Made by a program: the position numbers and the translations under genes. Below are positions 4,203 to 64,000 of a stretch of 64,000 nt of DNA, in pieces. Location: NCBI RefSeq assembly GCF_015709515.1, contig NZ_JADNQZ010000050.1:62001-126000 (forward strand), read 5' to 3'. The DNA is from Methylocystis sp. H62. GTDB taxonomy: Bacteria > Pseudomonadota > Alphaproteobacteria > Rhizobiales > Beijerinckiaceae. The notes under the pieces were generated by a model. The model had not been told where the DNA came from. It saw only the letters and a list, made by a program, of their open reading frames with translations, and made no database searches. Within the stretch, counting starts at the first letter, position 1. The number at the start of each line of letters is the position of its first letter.

Positions 4203-5015
4203 GTGAGGGCTCCCGTGACGCAAGCGTCATCCCGACACATCCGCTTCAGAGGCAGGTCCTTCCCCGTCCTGACGCTGGAGCCCGAGCAGCCGATCGAAGG
4301 CTGGCTCGAGCAGCTCGACGCGCTGCTTGAGCAGTCGCCCGCCTTTTTCAGTCGGAAGTCGATCGTCATCGACCTCGCCAAACTGACTTTGGAGCGGCAA
4401 GAACTCATCGAACTTCTCGAAAATCTCACCCGGCGCGGCATACGCCTCATGGGATTGTCGGGCGTCGACCCGTCATGGGCCAGCGACGATCTGCCGCCGA
4501 TTCTGGCCGGTGGTCGCGCCACCCCGCAACCGCCGCCGGACGTCAGCGCAACGCGCGCCAAAGACGCAAGCCCTGGAACGCTGTCCCCAAGCGAAGAAGC
4601 AGCCTTCGAGGATATCGCCAACGCGCTCGGCGCCGGCGGCGCGCAATCCGACGATCCCAAAGCGTCCGAGCCGCCGGCCCCGACGGCTGCGCCGCTGATC
4701 CTGCTGGAGCCGGTGCGCTCCGGGCAGTCGATTTATCACCCGGACGGCGACGTGACCGTGATCGGCTCCGTCGCGTCGGGCGCGGAAATCATGGCGGGCG
4801 GCTCCGTGCATATCTACGGAACGCTGCGCGGCCGCGCGATGGCCGGCGCCTATGGGGAAAAACGCGCGCGAATTTTCTGCCGCAAGCTCGAAGCCGAGCT
4901 GCTCTCGGTTTGCGGCGTTTATCTCACTGCCGACGAGATCTCGGCGAATGTTCAGAGCCAATCCATCCAGGCCTGGCTCGAAAACGAGACGGTCAAGATC
5001 GCGCGGCTCGATTAA
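4203..5015 (+). CDS. minC: Septum site-determining protein MinC
   Basis: Inhibitor of FtsZ polymerisation that, with MinD, blocks division at the poles. It has 270 residues. The N-terminal domain covers about 10-105. A Pro/Ala-rich linker follows to about 165. The C-terminal beta-helix domain contains VRSGQSIYHPDGDVTVIG and GSVHIYGTLRGRAMAG, the dimerisation and MinD-binding surface. The start is GTG at 4203; no better start precedes the conserved FRGRSFPVL segment. It is the first gene of minCDE, with 13 bases to minD. Confidence 0.95.
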   Translation: MRAPVTQASSRHIRFRGRSFPVLTLEPEQPIEGWLEQLDALLEQSPAFFSRKSIVIDLAKLTLERQELIELLENLTRRGIRLMGLSGVDPSWASDDLPPILAGGRATPQPPPDVSATRAKDASPGTLSPSEEAAFEDIANALGAGGAQSDDPKASEPPAPTAAPLILLEPVRSGQSIYHPDGDVTVIGSVASGAEIMAGGSVHIYGTLRGRAMAGAYGEKRARIFCRKLEAELLSVCGVYLTADEISANVQSQSIQAWLENETVKIARLD

Positions 5016-58753: not shown

Positions 58754-60475
58754 TCAGTGAAACAGCGCGGCGGTTTTGAGAAGTGTCGTCCAGACGCCCC
58801 AGGCGAGGGGGACGCCAACGGCGGCCCAGGCGAAAACCAGCAGCAGCGATCCGCCCTTTGAGCCGGGCGACGGGCGCGCGGGGGCCGGCGGATCGGCGTC
58901 GGTCGGGGCGGGGTCCAACCCTTCTTCGACAAAATCCTCGAAGTCGGCGTGGGTTTCGTCTTCTTCCTTGACGACCTCGGCGACCGTGATGTGCTTTTGC
59001 GCCGCGACCTCTTCGTCGCTCATGTAATATTTCTCGGCGCAGGGCCGCACGAGCAGATTGCAGACGAGACCGCAGAGCAGCAGGCCCGCGAGCACATACA
59101 TCGTCTGATTATAGGCGTCTTCGCGCGGCGCGCCGACGCTCAGCTGATATTCGCGAATGTAATTGACAAGCACGGGTCCGAGCACGCCCGCCGTCGACCA
59201 GGCGGTCAGAAGCCGGCCGTGGATGGCGCCGACATGATGCGTGCCGAAAATGTCGGCGAGATAAGCGGGAATGGTCGAAAAGCCGCCGCCATACATGGTG
59301 ATGATGACCGCAAAGAGCAGGACGAAGAGGCCGACCATGCCGCCCTTCGCCGCGAAGGGTTCCGCCGAATAAAGCGCGATGCCGACGACGAAAAAGATCG
59401 CGTAAGTGAGCTTGCGGCCGAACTTATCGGACGCCGAGGCCCAGCCGATGCGCCCGCCGATGTTGCACAGGCTCAACAGGCCGGTGAAGCCCGCCGCGAT
59501 CGCCGCGATCTGCTTTTTCTGATCGGCGTTGAGTTGATCGAACCCCATGTCCAGGCCGATCAGCCTGCCGCCGAAGACTTCCTGCAGCATCGGCGAGGCC
59601 ATGCCCAGGACGCCGATGCCGGCGGAGACGTTGAGACAGAGCACGGCCCAGAGCAGCCAGAATTGCGGCGTCTTCCATGCGACGTCGAGATGCACATGAC
59701 GATGCGTCACCATGGCGTTCTTGGCCGCCGTGGGCGGCGTGAATCCTTCCGGCGCCCAACCTTCGGGCGGCACCCGATAGCTGAGCGCGCCGGCGACCAT
59801 GAAGGCGAAATAAATCGCCGCGAGCGTGACGAACGTCTGCCAGACGCCCGGCGAAGCCGGCGTCGCATAGAAGCCCATCAGCCGGTCGGCGAGCGGCGCG
59901 CCGATCATCGCGCCGCCGCCAAATCCCATGATGGCGAGACCGGTCGCGAGGCCCCGCCGGTCCGGGAACCATTTGATGAGCGTCGAGACCGGCGAGATAT
60001 ATCCAAGCCCGAGACCAATGCCGCCGATCACGCCGGAGCCGATCCACAACATCCAGATCTGATGGAGATAGACCCCGAGCGCCGAGATGAGCAGGCCGCC
60101 GCACCAGCAGCAGGCCGCCGCGAGCCCGGCCTTGCGAGGTCCGGCCGTCTCCAGCCAATGGCCGAAGACCGCCGCCGAGGAGCCCAGAAACACGAAGAAC
60201 AGCGTGAACGTCCAGCCAAGCCAGCTGACCTTCCAGTCGCAATTGGTCGCCACGAGCGTGGCGAAAAACCCGAGCGTCTCAGGGCATTCCTTCGGCTGCG
60301 CGCCGCCAATGATCCGCGACAGCGGCAGCCAGAAGACGGAAAACCCATAGGCCATGCCGATGCACAGGTGAATGGCGAGCGCCGCCGGCGGCACGAGCCA
60401 GCGATTGAATGTCGGCGCAGCGACCGTGCGCTCCCGGCTGAAGAAATCGGGTGGGGCGATGGCGTCGGCAGTCAT
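58754..60475 (-). CDS. OFA-family MFS transporter (oxalate/formate antiporter type)
   Basis: A 573-residue permease of the major facilitator superfamily with about 12 helices. It resembles the oxalate:formate antiporter family: N-terminal HLCIGMAYGFSVFWLPLSRI, GLGLGYISPVSTLIKWFPDRRG and GIGVLGMASPMLQEVFGG. Two features exceed the usual 400-430 residues. One is an insert in the central loop; the other is a long acidic tail (VVKEEDETHADFEDFVEEG) with an extra hydrophobic segment at the very end. The substrate is unproven; formate or another small acid would suit a C1-metabolising organism. ATG 60475 follows a TTG by one codon. Confidence 0.85.
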   Translation of the reverse strand: MTADAIAPPDFFSRERTVAAPTFNRWLVPPAALAIHLCIGMAYGFSVFWLPLSRIIGGAQPKECPETLGFFATLVATNCDWKVSWLGWTFTLFFVFLGSSAAVFGHWLETAGPRKAGLAAACCWCGGLLISALGVYLHQIWMLWIGSGVIGGIGLGLGYISPVSTLIKWFPDRRGLATGLAIMGFGGGAMIGAPLADRLMGFYATPASPGVWQTFVTLAAIYFAFMVAGALSYRVPPEGWAPEGFTPPTAAKNAMVTHRHVHLDVAWKTPQFWLLWAVLCLNVSAGIGVLGMASPMLQEVFGGRLIGLDMGFDQLNADQKKQIAAIAAGFTGLLSLCNIGGRIGWASASDKFGRKLTYAIFFVVGIALYSAEPFAAKGGMVGLFVLLFAVIITMYGGGFSTIPAYLADIFGTHHVGAIHGRLLTAWSTAGVLGPVLVNYIREYQLSVGAPREDAYNQTMYVLAGLLLCGLVCNLLVRPCAEKYYMSDEEVAAQKHITVAEVVKEEDETHADFEDFVEEGLDPAPTDADPPAPARPSPGSKGGSLLLVFAWAAVGVPLAWGVWTTLLKTAALFH

Positions 60476-60554
60476 CAAACTTCCGGGCTTGGTTTCGTAG
60501 GTCGGTTATTGCGCATGCGCGGCGCGCGGCACAAGCCCAAGCCGTCCGAAGCAA

Positions 60555-60685
60555 TCCTCATCCTGAGGAGCCGCCGAAGGCGGCGTCTCGAAGGACGAGG
60601 ACTGCGATGCCGACAGCTCGCGATTTCGGGAAACGGTCCCTCGTCCTTAGAGACGCGCGCTCCGCACGCTCCTCAGGATGAGGGA
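60555..60685. repeat. Dispersed palindrome, family II, copies 4 and 5
   Basis: Two elements facing each other. The first (60555-60600) reads TCCTCATCCTGAGGAGCC to TCTCGAAGGACGAGG. The second (60637-60685) is its inverse, from TCCCTCGTCCTTAGAGACGC to GCTCCTCAGGATGAGGGA. Confidence 0.8.
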
Positions 60686-60770
60686 CCTTCCGTTGCACCC
60701 TCTCGCATGGCGGGGAAGCAGGACAAGTGACTGCACCTGAGATTACAACAGCCGCAACGTCGGGTGCGCC

Positions 60771-60863
60771 GTCATGGCCGGGCTTGTCCCGGCCATCGCC
60801 ACTTATGCGGCAGGCCGACTGAACTGGCGCTGCGTGGATGCCCGCGACAAGCGCGGGCATGAC
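60771..60863. repeat. Dispersed palindrome, family IV (GTCATGGCCGGGC)
   Basis: Starts GTCATGGCCGGGCTTGTCCC-GGCC, contains a second hairpin GCCCGCGACAAGCGCGGGC, and ends GGGCATGAC. It has the look of a common alphaproteobacterial intergenic palindrome; only one copy is in the window. It lies directly before the displaced meaA 3' end. Confidence 0.6.
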
Positions 60864-60885
60864 GCGGAGAGGTTGCGATGCGCGC

Positions 60886-61245
60886 CTAAGCCGCCGCCTT
60901 CTCGATGATGTGGGCAAGGTCGGTCATGATGGCGTTGAGGTCGTAGTTCTTCGGCGTATAAACCGCCGCGACGCCCGCTTCGCGCAAGAGCTTTTCGTCG
61001 GCCGGCGGAATAATGCCGCCGACGACGAGCGGCGCCTCGACGCCTTGCTGCTTCATCAGCTTGATCACTTCATGGGCGAGCGCCACATGCGAGCCCGAGA
61101 GAATGGAGAGGCCGATGCAATGCGCGCCTTCCTTCTTCGCCGCCTCGACAAGTTCGGCCGGCGTCGAGCGGATGCCGGCGTAGATCACGTCGAAGCCGGC
61201 GTCCCGCGCGCGGACCGCGATTTGTTCCGCGCCATTCGAATGGCC
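60886..61245 (-). pseudogene. Displaced 3' end of meaA (last 120 codons)
   Basis: In-frame coding for the last 120 residues of the cobalamin-binding domain of MeaA/ethylmalonyl-CoA mutase, from GHSNGAEQIAVRARD to IIEKAAA and a TAG stop. It matches 63456-63815 at about 90 percent by hand count (about 35 mismatches), mostly synonymous. Homology ends at 61245, one base past a 14-bp palindrome, and the codon directly before is a stop (TGA). It lacks the mutase barrel and the Asp of the DxHxxG cobalamin motif, so it cannot make a working protein. Confidence 0.85.
61231..61244. other. Putative recombination site, left (14-bp palindrome)
   Basis: GCCATTCGAATGGC is a perfect palindrome, shared with 63801-63814. 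Sequence identity to meaA stops one base beyond it here. It is proposed as the crossover core of the cassette; no integrase gene supports this. Confidence 0.45.
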
Positions 61246-61441
61246 TCACTTCACTCTTTCCAAGCGAGGAATCGACACCCATATCGAAAGGGTGTGGAAG
61301 GTTTTGGGCCATTGCATTTTTTGCGCGGGCGTGGGAATCTTGCGCGGGCGGTGTGGATTCGCTATCGCATCTCGCCTGTCAACCAAACGCTAACCTTCGT
61401 TTGGCATAAGATTGGCCAGCGATACGAACAGGAACTCGACA

Positions 61442-61498
61442 ATGCAGAACAAGATGAATGAAACCATTCTCGCCAGATTCCCTTTCGTGGAAGACTGA
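61442..61498 (+). CDS. Possible 18-residue leader peptide or truncated gene start
   Basis: An ATG with AGGAA 8 bases upstream opens an 18-codon frame, MQNKMNETILARFPFVED, ending at TGA three bases before the convergent RelA/SpoT-domain gene stop. An inverted repeat CCAAACG-N8-CGTTTGG (61384-61405) lies upstream, as an operator or attenuator might. This could be the 5' remnant of a gene cut by the cassette insertion, or chance. Confidence 0.25.
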   Translation: MQNKMNETILARFPFVED

Positions 61499-61501
61499 GT
61501 G

Positions 61502-63100
61502 CTATCTGGCAGGGATCTCTCTTATCTCGCAGTCGAGTAAGCGCAATCTGGCGCAGTGTTCATGCAAGTCATGAAGCAAATCAGGAAGCGGCCCCAGAGA
61601 TGGAGGCCGCTTTTTCTTGACTAAGTCCAGCATAGTTAACGCTTCTTGAAGTTCATAAGCAGTTTCTGCTGTTTGAATTACAACAAAAATTGCATTGTCA
61701 ATCGAATTAAACAGTCGATCCTCGTTTTCCGCTACGAACGGCGCGTCGATGATGCTCGACCAATTTGACGTCCCAATGGGCACAAGTTGCATCTCAACGA
61801 GACATTCTAGACTTATTTTACTAAAATATTTCGCCCTCTCGATTGAGCGGCGTTTTACTCCTTCATCGGCGCCAATTAATTCCGCAAAATAATAAGATAA
61901 AGAACTTGCAATCGAGTTCTTTTTGCGCAGAGCTGCCAGCTTGTTAGTTGAGTCGATAGCTCCCGAGCAGAGAGTCTCCACTTCATCAAATATTGATTCA
62001 GCTATATCGATTGCATTGCCTATATCTCCAAAACAAAAGTGAGCGATATGCGCGTATTGATGGGCTACTATTCGCTTTTCATGATCTTTCTCACTACACC
62101 ACATGTCAATGCGCTCAAGAGCAGCCAATTCGGATGAATTGTCTCCAGATAATGCCGCAACTGCGCTTAAAAAAAGACTGCTACAGGCGTGCTCTCCCTG
62201 ATCGTACAAAGATATTGCCTCCTCTCGCAACTCAGCGACTTCGCCAAGCCCGATCGATAGGACGTAGTTTGGCTGGATTGCGGCACGCATCTTATCGACG
62301 AAGGCTTTCGCTTCTGGGAGAGGCGACTTATCAGCGACATGGCTAGCGGCAAGCATAATTGTCTCGGATTGCACAGACGATCTCTTTGAATCCCGGAGTA
62401 CGCTGCTTCTTCTTATTGAATTTCTTAGACACTCGCTCTGCCTATCCAGCTGAGAAAGGACATTACCAAGCAAAGCAAAGTGCTCTTTGTCCGATTCTGC
62501 AACTGGAAATGAATTTTTATACGTCAAATCGTGCGTTTTTAGCTCCCATGCGTCATGAAGAATAGTTTTTATTTGTACCTCAACAATTGGCTCCTCGCTG
62601 CCATTTCGCATCCGGAGCCGATAATGGCAGGCAAAATAGCTGTTTTTATTATCTTCTACGACCTCGCCGTATATGGTTTTGGTCGTTCTATTATTATTCT
62701 GCTCTATGTTTCTATTTTTGTCGTATATTTGTGGATATACAGCTTTGCGCTCACATAGGGCATCTATCATGGCGCAAACTGTATTTATATCAGATGGATA
62801 TGTAACAGAAATAGTAATGCCTACGATGTCTGGCATACTATATACGTTTGACTTAATTAGGTTGTTGTCCAAACAATACTTATCATGTTTCAATCTAATT
62901 TTACGCGGATGCTTAATTTCGTTTCCGCCATTCTTATCCCCTCGAGAGTAAATGCTGTAAATGCATGCAAGATTTGCATGTTCGTTTCTGGCCTTTACGA
63001 TGAGCGTTCTAACGTGCGAGAGAGCTTCTATATACCTCTTGCCAAATTTCGAAATAAAATGCTCAATTTCTCTTGCGCTTGCAGGAGAAGATATGTCCAT
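61502..63100 (-). CDS. RelA/SpoT-domain protein with unknown helical C-terminal domain
   Basis: A 532-residue AT-rich gene. Residues about 20-200 resemble the (p)ppGpp synthetase (RelA_SpoT) domain: SRGDKNGGNEIKHPRK (52-67), Asp91 in MPDIVGI, NKNSYFACHY (151-160) and EVQIKTILHDAWELKTHDLTYK (174-195) with Glu174, matching the EIQIRT site but with Lys178 for Arg. There is no HD hydrolase, TGS or ACT domain, so it is not the housekeeping Rel. Residues about 210-532 are helical and repeat-like, without a recognised family. It could be an alarmone synthetase, a toxSAS-type toxin that modifies tRNA or nucleotides, or a CapRel-like defence sensor. ATG 63100 has GAGG 8 bases upstream. No antitoxin gene is adjacent. 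Confidence 0.75.
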   Translation of the reverse strand: MDISSPASAREIEHFISKFGKRYIEALSHVRTLIVKARNEHANLACIYSIYSRGDKNGGNEIKHPRKIRLKHDKYCLDNNLIKSNVYSMPDIVGITISVTYPSDINTVCAMIDALCERKAVYPQIYDKNRNIEQNNNRTTKTIYGEVVEDNKNSYFACHYRLRMRNGSEEPIVEVQIKTILHDAWELKTHDLTYKNSFPVAESDKEHFALLGNVLSQLDRQSECLRNSIRRSSVLRDSKRSSVQSETIMLAASHVADKSPLPEAKAFVDKMRAAIQPNYVLSIGLGEVAELREEAISLYDQGEHACSSLFLSAVAALSGDNSSELAALERIDMWCSEKDHEKRIVAHQYAHIAHFCFGDIGNAIDIAESIFDEVETLCSGAIDSTNKLAALRKKNSIASSLSYYFAELIGADEGVKRRSIERAKYFSKISLECLVEMQLVPIGTSNWSSIIDAPFVAENEDRLFNSIDNAIFVVIQTAETAYELQEALTMLDLVKKKRPPSLGPLPDLLHDLHEHCARLRLLDCEIREIPAR

Positions 63101-63144
63101 GGTAAGTCCTCATTCATTAACTCGTGAAACTGGAAAATCGATTA

Positions 63145-63171
63145 ATTATACGGGCTGAGAAGACTTAACAA
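63145..63171 (-). promoter_or_regulatory. Promoter of the RelA/SpoT-domain gene
   Basis: On the reverse strand: -35 TTGTTA, 15-base spacer, -10 TATAAT (perfect consensus), about 45 bases before the ATG. Such a housekeeping-consensus promoter differs from typical GC-rich alphaproteobacterial promoters, in line with foreign origin. Confidence 0.55.
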
Positions 63172-63398
63172 GGTGCCCTGTGATTAAGGGATTGCGGTGT
63201 CGGCCCCCAAAGCGTGAATAAGGTTATATATCGGAGGCGCATTTGATATCGCTTCGCTGAGGACATTAAACGGCAAGTGAGGCGAAAACGGCAGATAATC
63301 CGATTACGCTGACTGACTTACGATGAACACCAAGTGCTGTTCGACTTGCAATTGCAAACGTCTGGAGACAATCCGGAGCTGTAGGACAGCCGCTGGGA
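63172..63398. other. Non-coding part of the cassette
   Basis: About 230 bases of mixed composition between the promoter of the RelA/SpoT-domain gene and the meaA end. No gene, terminator or repeat is recognised. Confidence 0.4.
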
Positions 63399-63429
63399 CT
63401 GCTTCGTCGCTTGGCTCCTCGCAATGACG
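63399..63429. repeat. Half copy of family I palindrome
   Basis: CTGCTTCGTCGCTTGGCTCC then TCGCAATGACG: only the right arm of the 82-bp palindrome found at 33236 and 57459. It lies just after the stop of meaA, at the cassette edge. Confidence 0.7.
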
Positions 63430-63455
63430 ACTGCGGCGTGGCGCGCGAAAGTCGA

Positions 63456-64000
63456 TCAGACCGCCGCCTTTTCGATGATGTGGGCGAGGTCGGTCATGAT
63501 GGCGTTGAGGTCGTAGTTCTTCGGCGTGTAGACCGCCGCAACGCCGGCGTCGCGCAGAAGCTTCTCGTCGGCGGGCGGAATAATGCCGCCGACGACCAGC
63601 GGCGCGTCGACGCCTTCCTGCTTCATCAGCTTGATGACTTCATGCGCCAGCGTCACATGCGAGCCGGAGAGGATGGAGAGGCCGATGCAATGCGCGCCTT
63701 CCTTCTTCGCGGCCTCGACGAGTTCAGCCGGCGTCGAGCGAATGCCGGCGTAAATCACGTCAAACCCCGCGTCGCGGGCGCGCACGGCGATCTGCTCGGC
63801 GCCATTCGAATGGCCATCGAGGCCGGGCTTGCCGACCAAAAATTTCGCCCGCTTGCCGAGCTTTTGCGACACGCGCTCGACTTCGCCGCGCACGGCGTCG
63901 AGCGCGCCGCCGACCTGTCGGGCCGTCGAGGAGACGCCGGTCGGGGCGCGATACTCCCCGAACACCCCGCGTAAAACATTGCCCCATTCGCCGGTGGTGA
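63456..64000 (-). CDS. meaA: Ethylmalonyl-CoA mutase (MeaA), C-terminal part
   Basis: Coenzyme B12-dependent mutase of the ethylmalonyl-CoA pathway, used for glyoxylate regeneration or acetyl-CoA assimilation. The last 181 codons are visible, entering from beyond 64000 (TTGEWGNVLRGVFGEYRAPT). The cobalamin-binding domain has GKPGLDGHSNGAEQIAVRA with the DxHxxG motif, then GLSILSGSH and VVGGIIPPADE. The DGHSNG form separates it from methylmalonyl-CoA mutase, which has DGHDRG. The codons from GHSNGA to the stop are duplicated in diverged form at 60886-61245. This 3' end may itself have been brought in by the cassette. Confidence 0.88.
   Translation of the reverse strand, partial: TTGEWGNVLRGVFGEYRAPTGVSSTARQVGGALDAVRGEVERVSQKLGKRAKFLVGKPGLDGHSNGAEQIAVRARDAGFDVIYAGIRSTPAELVEAAKKEGAHCIGLSILSGSHVTLAHEVIKLMKQEGVDAPLVVGGIIPPADEKLLRDAGVAAVYTPKNYDLNAIMTDLAHIIEKAAV
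63801..63814. other. Putative recombination site, right (14-bp palindrome inside meaA)
   Basis: GCCATTCGAATGGC within the codons for the cobalamin-binding DGHSNG motif, identical to 61231-61244. Sequence upstream of it in meaA is present only here, sequence downstream in both copies. Confidence 0.45.

Follow-up and report, generated by a model that had tools for sequence, protein, structure and literature searches.

The 64,000-nucleotide stretch of Methylocystis sp. H62 analysed here (the window; positions 62,001 to 126,000 of contig NZ_JADNQZ010000050.1) carries at its right end the 3' part of meaA, an acyl-CoA mutase gene that extends past the window. The last 120 codons of this gene (360 bases) are present twice in the window, both times on the minus strand, once as the end of the gene and once as a headless copy, and the DNA between the two copies (about 2.2 kb, hereafter the cassette) contains one large open reading frame (ORF), for a protein with a RelA/SpoT domain. 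The coordinates of all features are collected in the table. The host genome (4.54 Mb, 59 contigs) encodes a particulate methane monooxygenase subunit, consistent with a methanotroph, and both meaA ends lie deep inside a single contig of 183,514 bases (C50). The name meaA is taken from an earlier note on this DNA that was made from the sequence alone. Family models assign the whole gene (an ORF of 665 aa; MM_CoA_mutase, E = 3.7e-131) to the acyl-CoA mutase family only, and related plasmid genes are annotated as 'protein meaA' in two rows among the matches listed.

Table. Features of the meaA locus in the window (positions are those of the window; a point marks features without strand)
Feature	Position	Strand	Basis or remark
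Intact meaA, 3' part (acyl-CoA mutase with B12-binding domain)	63456..64000	-	Pfam B12-binding, E = 2e-22; gene extends past the window
3' end copy that now ends meaA	63456..63815	-	Close-clade allele; nearest G117, G109 and G106, at 93%
Same palindrome within intact meaA	63801..63814	.	Sequence
Imported stretch, start of RelA/SpoT-domain gene to meaA stop	63101..63455	.	63369-63437 matches a dispersed genus repeat
Gene for 532-aa protein: small-alarmone-synthetase (RelA_SpoT) domain, then all-helical TPR-like C-terminal part	61502..63100	-	Pfam, profile, Foldseek, structure model
Imported stretch, joint side	61246..61501	.	Holds an 18-codon plus-strand ORF (61442-61498)
Joint between imported DNA and meaA	61245..61246	.	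In-frame TGA immediately before the headless copy
Palindrome at the joint, cobalamin-motif codons	61231..61244	.	Sequence
First 45 bases of the headless copy, at the joint	61201..61245	-	G112-like; switch to close-clade sequence between about 61205 and 61159
Headless (displaced) meaA 3' end	60886..61245	-	Runs into the ancestral flank, like the single end of G106
Resident intergenic flank, headless copy to MFS gene	60486..60885	.	Contiguous with meaA in G106
MFS transporter gene	58754..60478	-	Pfam MFS_1, E = 3.6e-28; usual downstream neighbour of meaA

The earlier note had described the repetition of the meaA end, a divergence of about 10 percent that is mostly synonymous, and a stop codon directly at the headless copy, and all three observations hold. 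The two copies are identical at 321 of 360 bases (10.8% divergence) and agree by residue in 115 of 120 codons, the stop counted. Third positions account for 34 of the 39 base differences, and the 37 differing codons comprise 32 synonymous changes and five replacements, a pattern that fits the suggestion of the same note that one copy is an allele from a relative. The codon directly before the headless copy is an in-frame TGA. A DNA search of the whole genome returned these two copies only, the second with an E-value (6.5e-137) far beyond chance. The corresponding protein search gave two further matches, one of which, among the matches listed, is 38% identical and lies within another mutase-length frame. 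Neither search of this genome found a full second mutase gene from which the headless copy could have been derived.

For comparison we used a set of 39 genomes of the genus, 36 of which (the host and 35 others) match the meaA end. The DNA downstream of meaA was examined in 33 of these 35 other genomes and in two of a sister genus, in several of them over a few kb only. An empty site, with one meaA end running into the flank as the earlier note had predicted for strains lacking the cassette, is present in G106, whose single meaA end matches window positions 59403-61245 without a large break, to the limit of the G106 locus. In G117, G108 and G109 the gap between meaA and the MFS transporter gene is only about 220-230 bases. 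In 21 of the 35 relatives' loci (a fragment in G113 counted) the MFS gene lies downstream of meaA with matching orientation; in G128 it is about 7 kb off and inverted, and in 13 loci it was not found. Given the empty site and the conserved succession of meaA and the MFS gene, the headless copy is, by synteny, the resident, displaced meaA end. The relatives do not all share the arrangement of the host, which by the earlier note would have refuted its reading: among the 36 genus genomes with a match only the host has two long copies, and G121 has a second piece that is short and decayed. A check for the motif codons of meaA in 397 family genomes, which is blind to headless copies without the motif such as that of G121, found the pattern in 218 genomes, and twice in five. 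One of these five is the host, and in the other four (G607, G646, G663 and G711) the two sites are separated by about 2 Mb or fall on separate contigs. We also observed that, compared with the window, the neighbourhood downstream of meaA has been replaced or inverted at L082 and L084 (G103 and G104) and at L068, L073 and L078 (G127, G124 and G128).

A tree of the two 3' ends, which the earlier note had expected to name the native copy, gave an ambiguous answer, and it is synteny that decides. In it the intact end forms a weak group with G106 (support 78) and the headless end falls near G121 and G107; the gene body is nearest to G106 and G117. Identity tiles along the gene and its flank are ambiguous as well. 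Apart from the bases of the headless copy at the joint, both copies resemble ordinary close-clade alleles. The differences of the headless copy were counted against 36 genomes, with the intact copy left out. In its bases 0-45 it differs from the distant relative G112 at two positions, from G131 at four, from G120 at five and from the 13 close-clade genomes at six to nine; in bases 66-357 it differs from G112 at 41 positions and from the close clade at 12-30. An excess of at least four differences from the close clade over those from far genomes, scored in 36-base windows, was seen in three of 3936 overlapping control windows (at two places). It was seen in four of 55 windows of the headless copy, all starting at bases 0-18, beside the joint. 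By these counts the headless copy is a chimera, with donor sequence at the joint and close-clade, or resident, sequence beyond it. The earliest base to contradict G112 is base 86, and the ancestry switches somewhere from about base 40 up to that point, which places an exchange about 40-86 bases inside meaA. Elsewhere in the gene, past the window end (L003, about 4278-4398, 463-583 bases upstream of the palindrome described below), 15 private differences are crowded into 120 bases, and none of the genus genomes compared offers a near source for them; this patch is likely to be another recombination tract in meaA.

The cassette has a GC content of 45.3% as against 63.5% for the window and, in agreement with the earlier description of AT-rich DNA with one large gene, its only large ORF matches the Pfam family RelA_SpoT. 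The reported absence of an integrase also stands for the tyrosine and serine recombinases, neither of which has a match in the cassette; other kinds of transposase were not searched for. The genome as a whole has 19 matches to tyrosine recombinases (PF00589) and 15 to serine recombinases (PF00239); contig C50 has a single PF00589 match, about 121 kb away, and no match to PF00239. Across the 38 other genus genomes the left 256 bases of the cassette, on the joint side, gave only a 37-base match in G131 (E = 0.009). The 18-codon ORF in this part is preceded by a plausible ribosome-binding site and is possibly the truncated start of another gene. At the opposite end, a dispersed repeat starts about 20 bases past the stop of the intact meaA copy. 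Cassette DNA is matched in 31 of the 39 genus genomes, and among the matches listed the non-self ones lie in or beside this repeat, often several per genome. With a dispersed repeat of the genus, compared within the genus only, standing just behind the intact copy, the imported meaA end probably came with chromosomal DNA of the genus type.

The 532-aa product of the cassette is related to the small alarmone synthetases. Its N-terminal domain matches Pfam RelA_SpoT above the cut-off (E = 9.4e-9) and has a profile match to structure 3l9d (E = 7.8e-14), and the top three Foldseek rows are 5ded/3l9d, with TM-scores by target length of 0.70-0.74, for a structure model with a mean pLDDT of 82.8 and a pTM of 0.63. 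The match to the NCBIfam equivalog for YjbM reaches only 24 bits, against a cut-off of 320. Like the small alarmone synthetases YjbM/RelQ and RelP, the protein has the synthetase fold and the conserved stretches DIVG, Y-x-A-x-H and E-x-Q-x-K-T, but it differs from them in its long C-terminal part, which is all-helical with profile similarity to consensus TPR proteins. Residues D91, Y155, H159 and E174 are invariant across ten aligned sequences, and we take residues of this type to be catalytic or nucleotide-binding in known synthetases. The protein is a member of a rare alarmone-synthetase family with a TPR-like part. Matches within the genus are limited to two of the 39 genomes, the host and G102, whose 28% identical relative is elsewhere in the chromosome (L135, G102:C1:2544592-2545707), and at E = 1e-10 only three of 397 genomes of the order, the host included, have the gene. 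A single-sequence scan of 84,980 species found none, and an alignment-based scan returned 14 loci, two of which (L118 and L131) are apparently contigs already in the alignment. Among ten loci with relatives of the gene, GC content is below that of the whole locus by at least 0.10 in five (L118, L120, L121, L122 and L127) and hardly different from it in two (L119 and L123). A phage or plasmid that carries the gene was not found, there being no match in PLSDB (E = 1e-8), INPHARED (E = 1e-5) or IMG/VR. The toxSAS/CapRel proteins are presumably near kin of this type; unlike them, the protein has no second gene of size beside it in the cassette and no match in the PADLOC defence library up to E = 1. 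Judging from the fold and from these relatives, the most likely role of the protein is to respond to stress or phage signals perceived by its helical part, either by synthesising an alarmone or by modifying a nucleotide or tRNA. Enzymes of the toxSAS group are implicated in antiphage immunity (PMC11559606).

Two relatives show parallel cases in the meaA-MFS gap. We screened 37 sequences (608,044 bases: the window, the overlapping locus L003 and 35 relatives' loci) by self-comparison for direct repeats of at least 110 bases no more than 15 kb apart. Two loci were set aside, that of G042 (L100), with dozens of matches between repeats in one stretch, and that of G078 (L099), where the second copy of the repeat lies before meaA and no gene end is involved. 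The only remaining gene-end duplications besides that of the host are in G121 and G102. In G121 a weakly TonB-like ORF (E = 0.0067, below the cut-off) is joined to the interior of meaA about 96 bases past the start of the motif, with three to four shared bases at the joint; the displaced meaA piece is decayed and is followed by a serine-carboxypeptidase-like gene before the MFS gene. The same ORF directly follows meaA in G107, G127 and G123. The decayed piece (L066, 690-820, 955-1323 and 1331-1454) has the appearance of an older displacement of a gene end in this gap. In G102 a unit with a small ORF of no known family meets the MFS gene about 50 codons past its start, at a joint where CTGCC is shared. 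The 5' end of the MFS gene is duplicated (92% identity), and a second MFS start follows (L075, 1228-1383 and 1368-2076). This unit also occurs in the meaA-MFS gap of G122, G128, G127 and G124, with nearly the same left boundary and different DNA before it, and may itself be a small mobile unit. From the cases of G121 and G102, the gap is a site at which neighbours known from other strains have been added, with gene-end duplications and varied joints. That it is a hot spot is only suggested, because the choice of loci was led by the meaA finding.

The joint in the host lies next to a perfect 14-base palindrome, GCCATTCGAATGGC, whose only two sites in the window, at 61231 and 63801, are those in the two meaA ends. 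Alignment agrees with the earlier note in that the homology of the two ends extends one base past it. The letters of the palindrome are the codons Gly-His-Ser-Asn-Gly-Ala of the conserved cobalamin motif, and GHSNGAEQ is present in 29 of 29 family loci checked. Most relatives have TCC AAC as the Ser-Asn codons. In G133, G127 and G113 these codons are TCG AAT, which gives the same palindrome, and each of the three has just one full-length meaA end; in G133 a contig end truncates the sequence that follows meaA. Perfect palindromes of this length number 16 in the window, 14 of them besides the two in meaA. The palindrome can be a by-product of coding, since it consists of conserved-motif codons, recurs letter for letter in relatives with a single meaA end and is one of 16 in the window. 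An origin of the cassette as a restriction fragment was also considered, as the palindrome contains TTCGAA; it is disfavoured by another TTCGAA inside the cassette, at 63048.

We consider it fairly probable that the locus arose by an insertion-duplication without an integrase, in which a chance joint was combined with a homologous crossover. The process would have started from a DNA fragment of another strain of the genus that carried its meaA end, the repeat downstream of it and the RelA/SpoT-domain gene. The non-homologous end of this fragment would have been joined accidentally to meaA at the cobalamin-motif codons, most simply through circularisation of a partly degraded fragment, and a crossover within the 360-base shared stretch, presumably mediated by RecA, would then have inserted the fragment at the resident meaA. 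The outcome would be a whole meaA with a partly foreign end and a resident end shifted 2.6 kb downstream. A homologous stretch that is duplicated with imported DNA between the copies, as insertion-duplication predicts, is what is seen, and a chimeric headless copy, donor at the joint and resident beyond, would be the expected leftover of a crossover in the shared stretch. A single crossover should also leave the reciprocal chimera in the intact copy, resident first and donor after, and there only an ordinary close-clade allele is seen. Further support comes from the empty site in G106, the short meaA-MFS gaps of G117, G108 and G109, the parallel gene-end duplications in G121 and G102, the genus repeat behind the intact copy and the cassette's want of any tyrosine or serine recombinase match. 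There is precedent for such events. According to passages in PMC3240628, most of 60 Escherichia coli recombinants, from a design intended to reveal one-sided integration, had a duplicated gene end instead and four of 60 were one-sided, and the authors ascribe the gene-end duplications to circular, partly deleted DNA and one crossover. The same passages describe events in transformable bacteria in which one end recombines by homology and the other is joined by accident, usually with a deletion.

Several points weigh against this explanation. A single, purely G112-like donor should have left a G112-like intact end, and the intact end is not G112-like; at least two exchanges would thus be required. 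No donor with meaA followed by the RelA/SpoT-domain gene was found, the genus having only the 28% relative elsewhere in G102, and the left 256 bases of the cassette are unmatched in G112. The chimera call rests on about 45 bases. Finally, with 14 other such palindromes in 64 kb, a palindrome one base from a random joint is roughly a 1-in-1000 coincidence, calculated post hoc, and insertion-duplication assigns it no role.

A perfect palindrome at the joint would fit a small integrative element, or an integrase-less remnant of one (CIME), with an attachment site at the cobalamin-motif codons of meaA, which would restore the gene end on insertion and rely on a recombinase in trans. We regard this origin as unlikely. 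It would account for the direct repeats at both ends of the cassette, with a restored gene end on one side and a displaced one on the other, as described for islands in tRNA genes (PMC4383910); the target is highly conserved, and many recombinases are encoded elsewhere in the genome. That neither a tyrosine nor a serine recombinase is matched in the cassette speaks against an intact element. A CIME lacks a recombinase by definition, and the missing gene therefore counts against the intact form only. Both forms are disfavoured by other observations. No further insertion at the same core was found in the 397 family genomes, 218 of them with the motif, so that the other cassettes at this palindrome which the earlier note had named as support were not seen; none of the 35 other matching genus genomes has a second long copy, and the joints in G121 and G102 lie at other places. 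On the gene side of the joint the headless copy resembles G112 over about 40 bases, and donor bases at that place would not be expected from a recombinase with its site at the palindrome. A carrier was not seen: the meaA end has no relatives in IMG/VR, plasmid records reach 64% identity at best, and phage records give two weak matches (55% and 40%). The proposal of the earlier note, that an element brought its own meaA end and displaced that of the host, hence stands as regards import and displacement, which the empty site in G106 bears out, and finds no support as regards a site-specific element at the palindrome, in view of the missing recurrence, the ancestry switch inside meaA and the other joints in G121 and G102.

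Less probable still is classical homology-facilitated illegitimate recombination, or template switching during replication, with a homologous anchor anywhere in meaA and a jump back onto the recipient at the palindrome, possibly onto the sister chromosome. The cassette does have one homologous and one non-homologous end, and the joints of the parallel cases share three to five bases (three to four in G121, five in G102), where microhomology of 3-10 bp would be expected. Illegitimate recombination has been proposed for displaced gene ends in type VI secretion system (T6SS) loci of Vibrio (passages of PMC5361080), and inter-chromatid integration has been modelled and tested in pneumococcus, where it yields duplications (PMC3784515). 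However, illegitimate recombination usually inserts DNA while deleting a similar length, as described in PMC3240628, whereas here the end is duplicated and the resident end and flank are kept; for both processes, the chimera within the headless copy would need an additional exchange. A tandem duplication in this lineage followed by insertion of the RelA/SpoT-domain gene between the copies, or an assembly artefact, would match the arrangement alone and is very improbable, since the nearly all synonymous divergence of 10.8% exceeds that of either copy from its nearest relatives, the joint-side bases are of different ancestry, and both copies lie within one 183-kb contig.

Restored and displaced gene ends are often taken as the mark of an integrative element, and at meaA homologous recombination appears to explain them better, despite the palindrome. 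The two origins can be told apart by looking for a change of ancestry within the displaced end. The locus further documents, on a small scale and in nature, how a single accessory gene can enter the housekeeping neighbourhood of a methanotroph without damage. A more speculative idea, which we hold to be unlikely, is that the duplicated ends serve as portable homology handles, by which the cassette, with no enzyme but RecA, could leave by looping out and enter any other meaA in the genus, each time with meaA left whole, so that accessory genes would circulate without an integrase and the gap would be a site of exchange.

Our literature search, made at the level of titles and the beginnings of abstracts and with most subscription journals outside its reach, found among the papers listed no report of genomic islands in meaA or the ethylmalonyl-CoA mutase gene, which leaves their absence unproven. 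Several known systems resemble parts of the locus. Insertion of prophage e14 in icd restores the end of its target gene. Islands in tRNA genes (PMC4383910) and SGI1 at trmE (PMC8409611) share with the meaA locus a restored and a displaced end, but they are moved by an integrase that acts at a fixed core, and at meaA neither an integrase nor recurrence was found. The displaced 3' ends in Vibrio T6SS loci, in the passages cited above, are similar in their one-sided homology, in the displacement of resident ends and in repeated events at one locus; they differ in carrying effector-immunity modules, and the classical product of illegitimate recombination differs in its deletion. The nearest likeness is to the single-crossover insertion-duplications at the lacZ end in E. 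coli (passages of PMC3240628). These were obtained with a laboratory plasmid introduced by conjugation, whereas the meaA locus is natural, its displaced end is chimeric and its joint lies at a palindrome, but the two have in common a duplicated gene end, a ragged joint in the homologous end and foreign DNA between the copies, all without an integrase.

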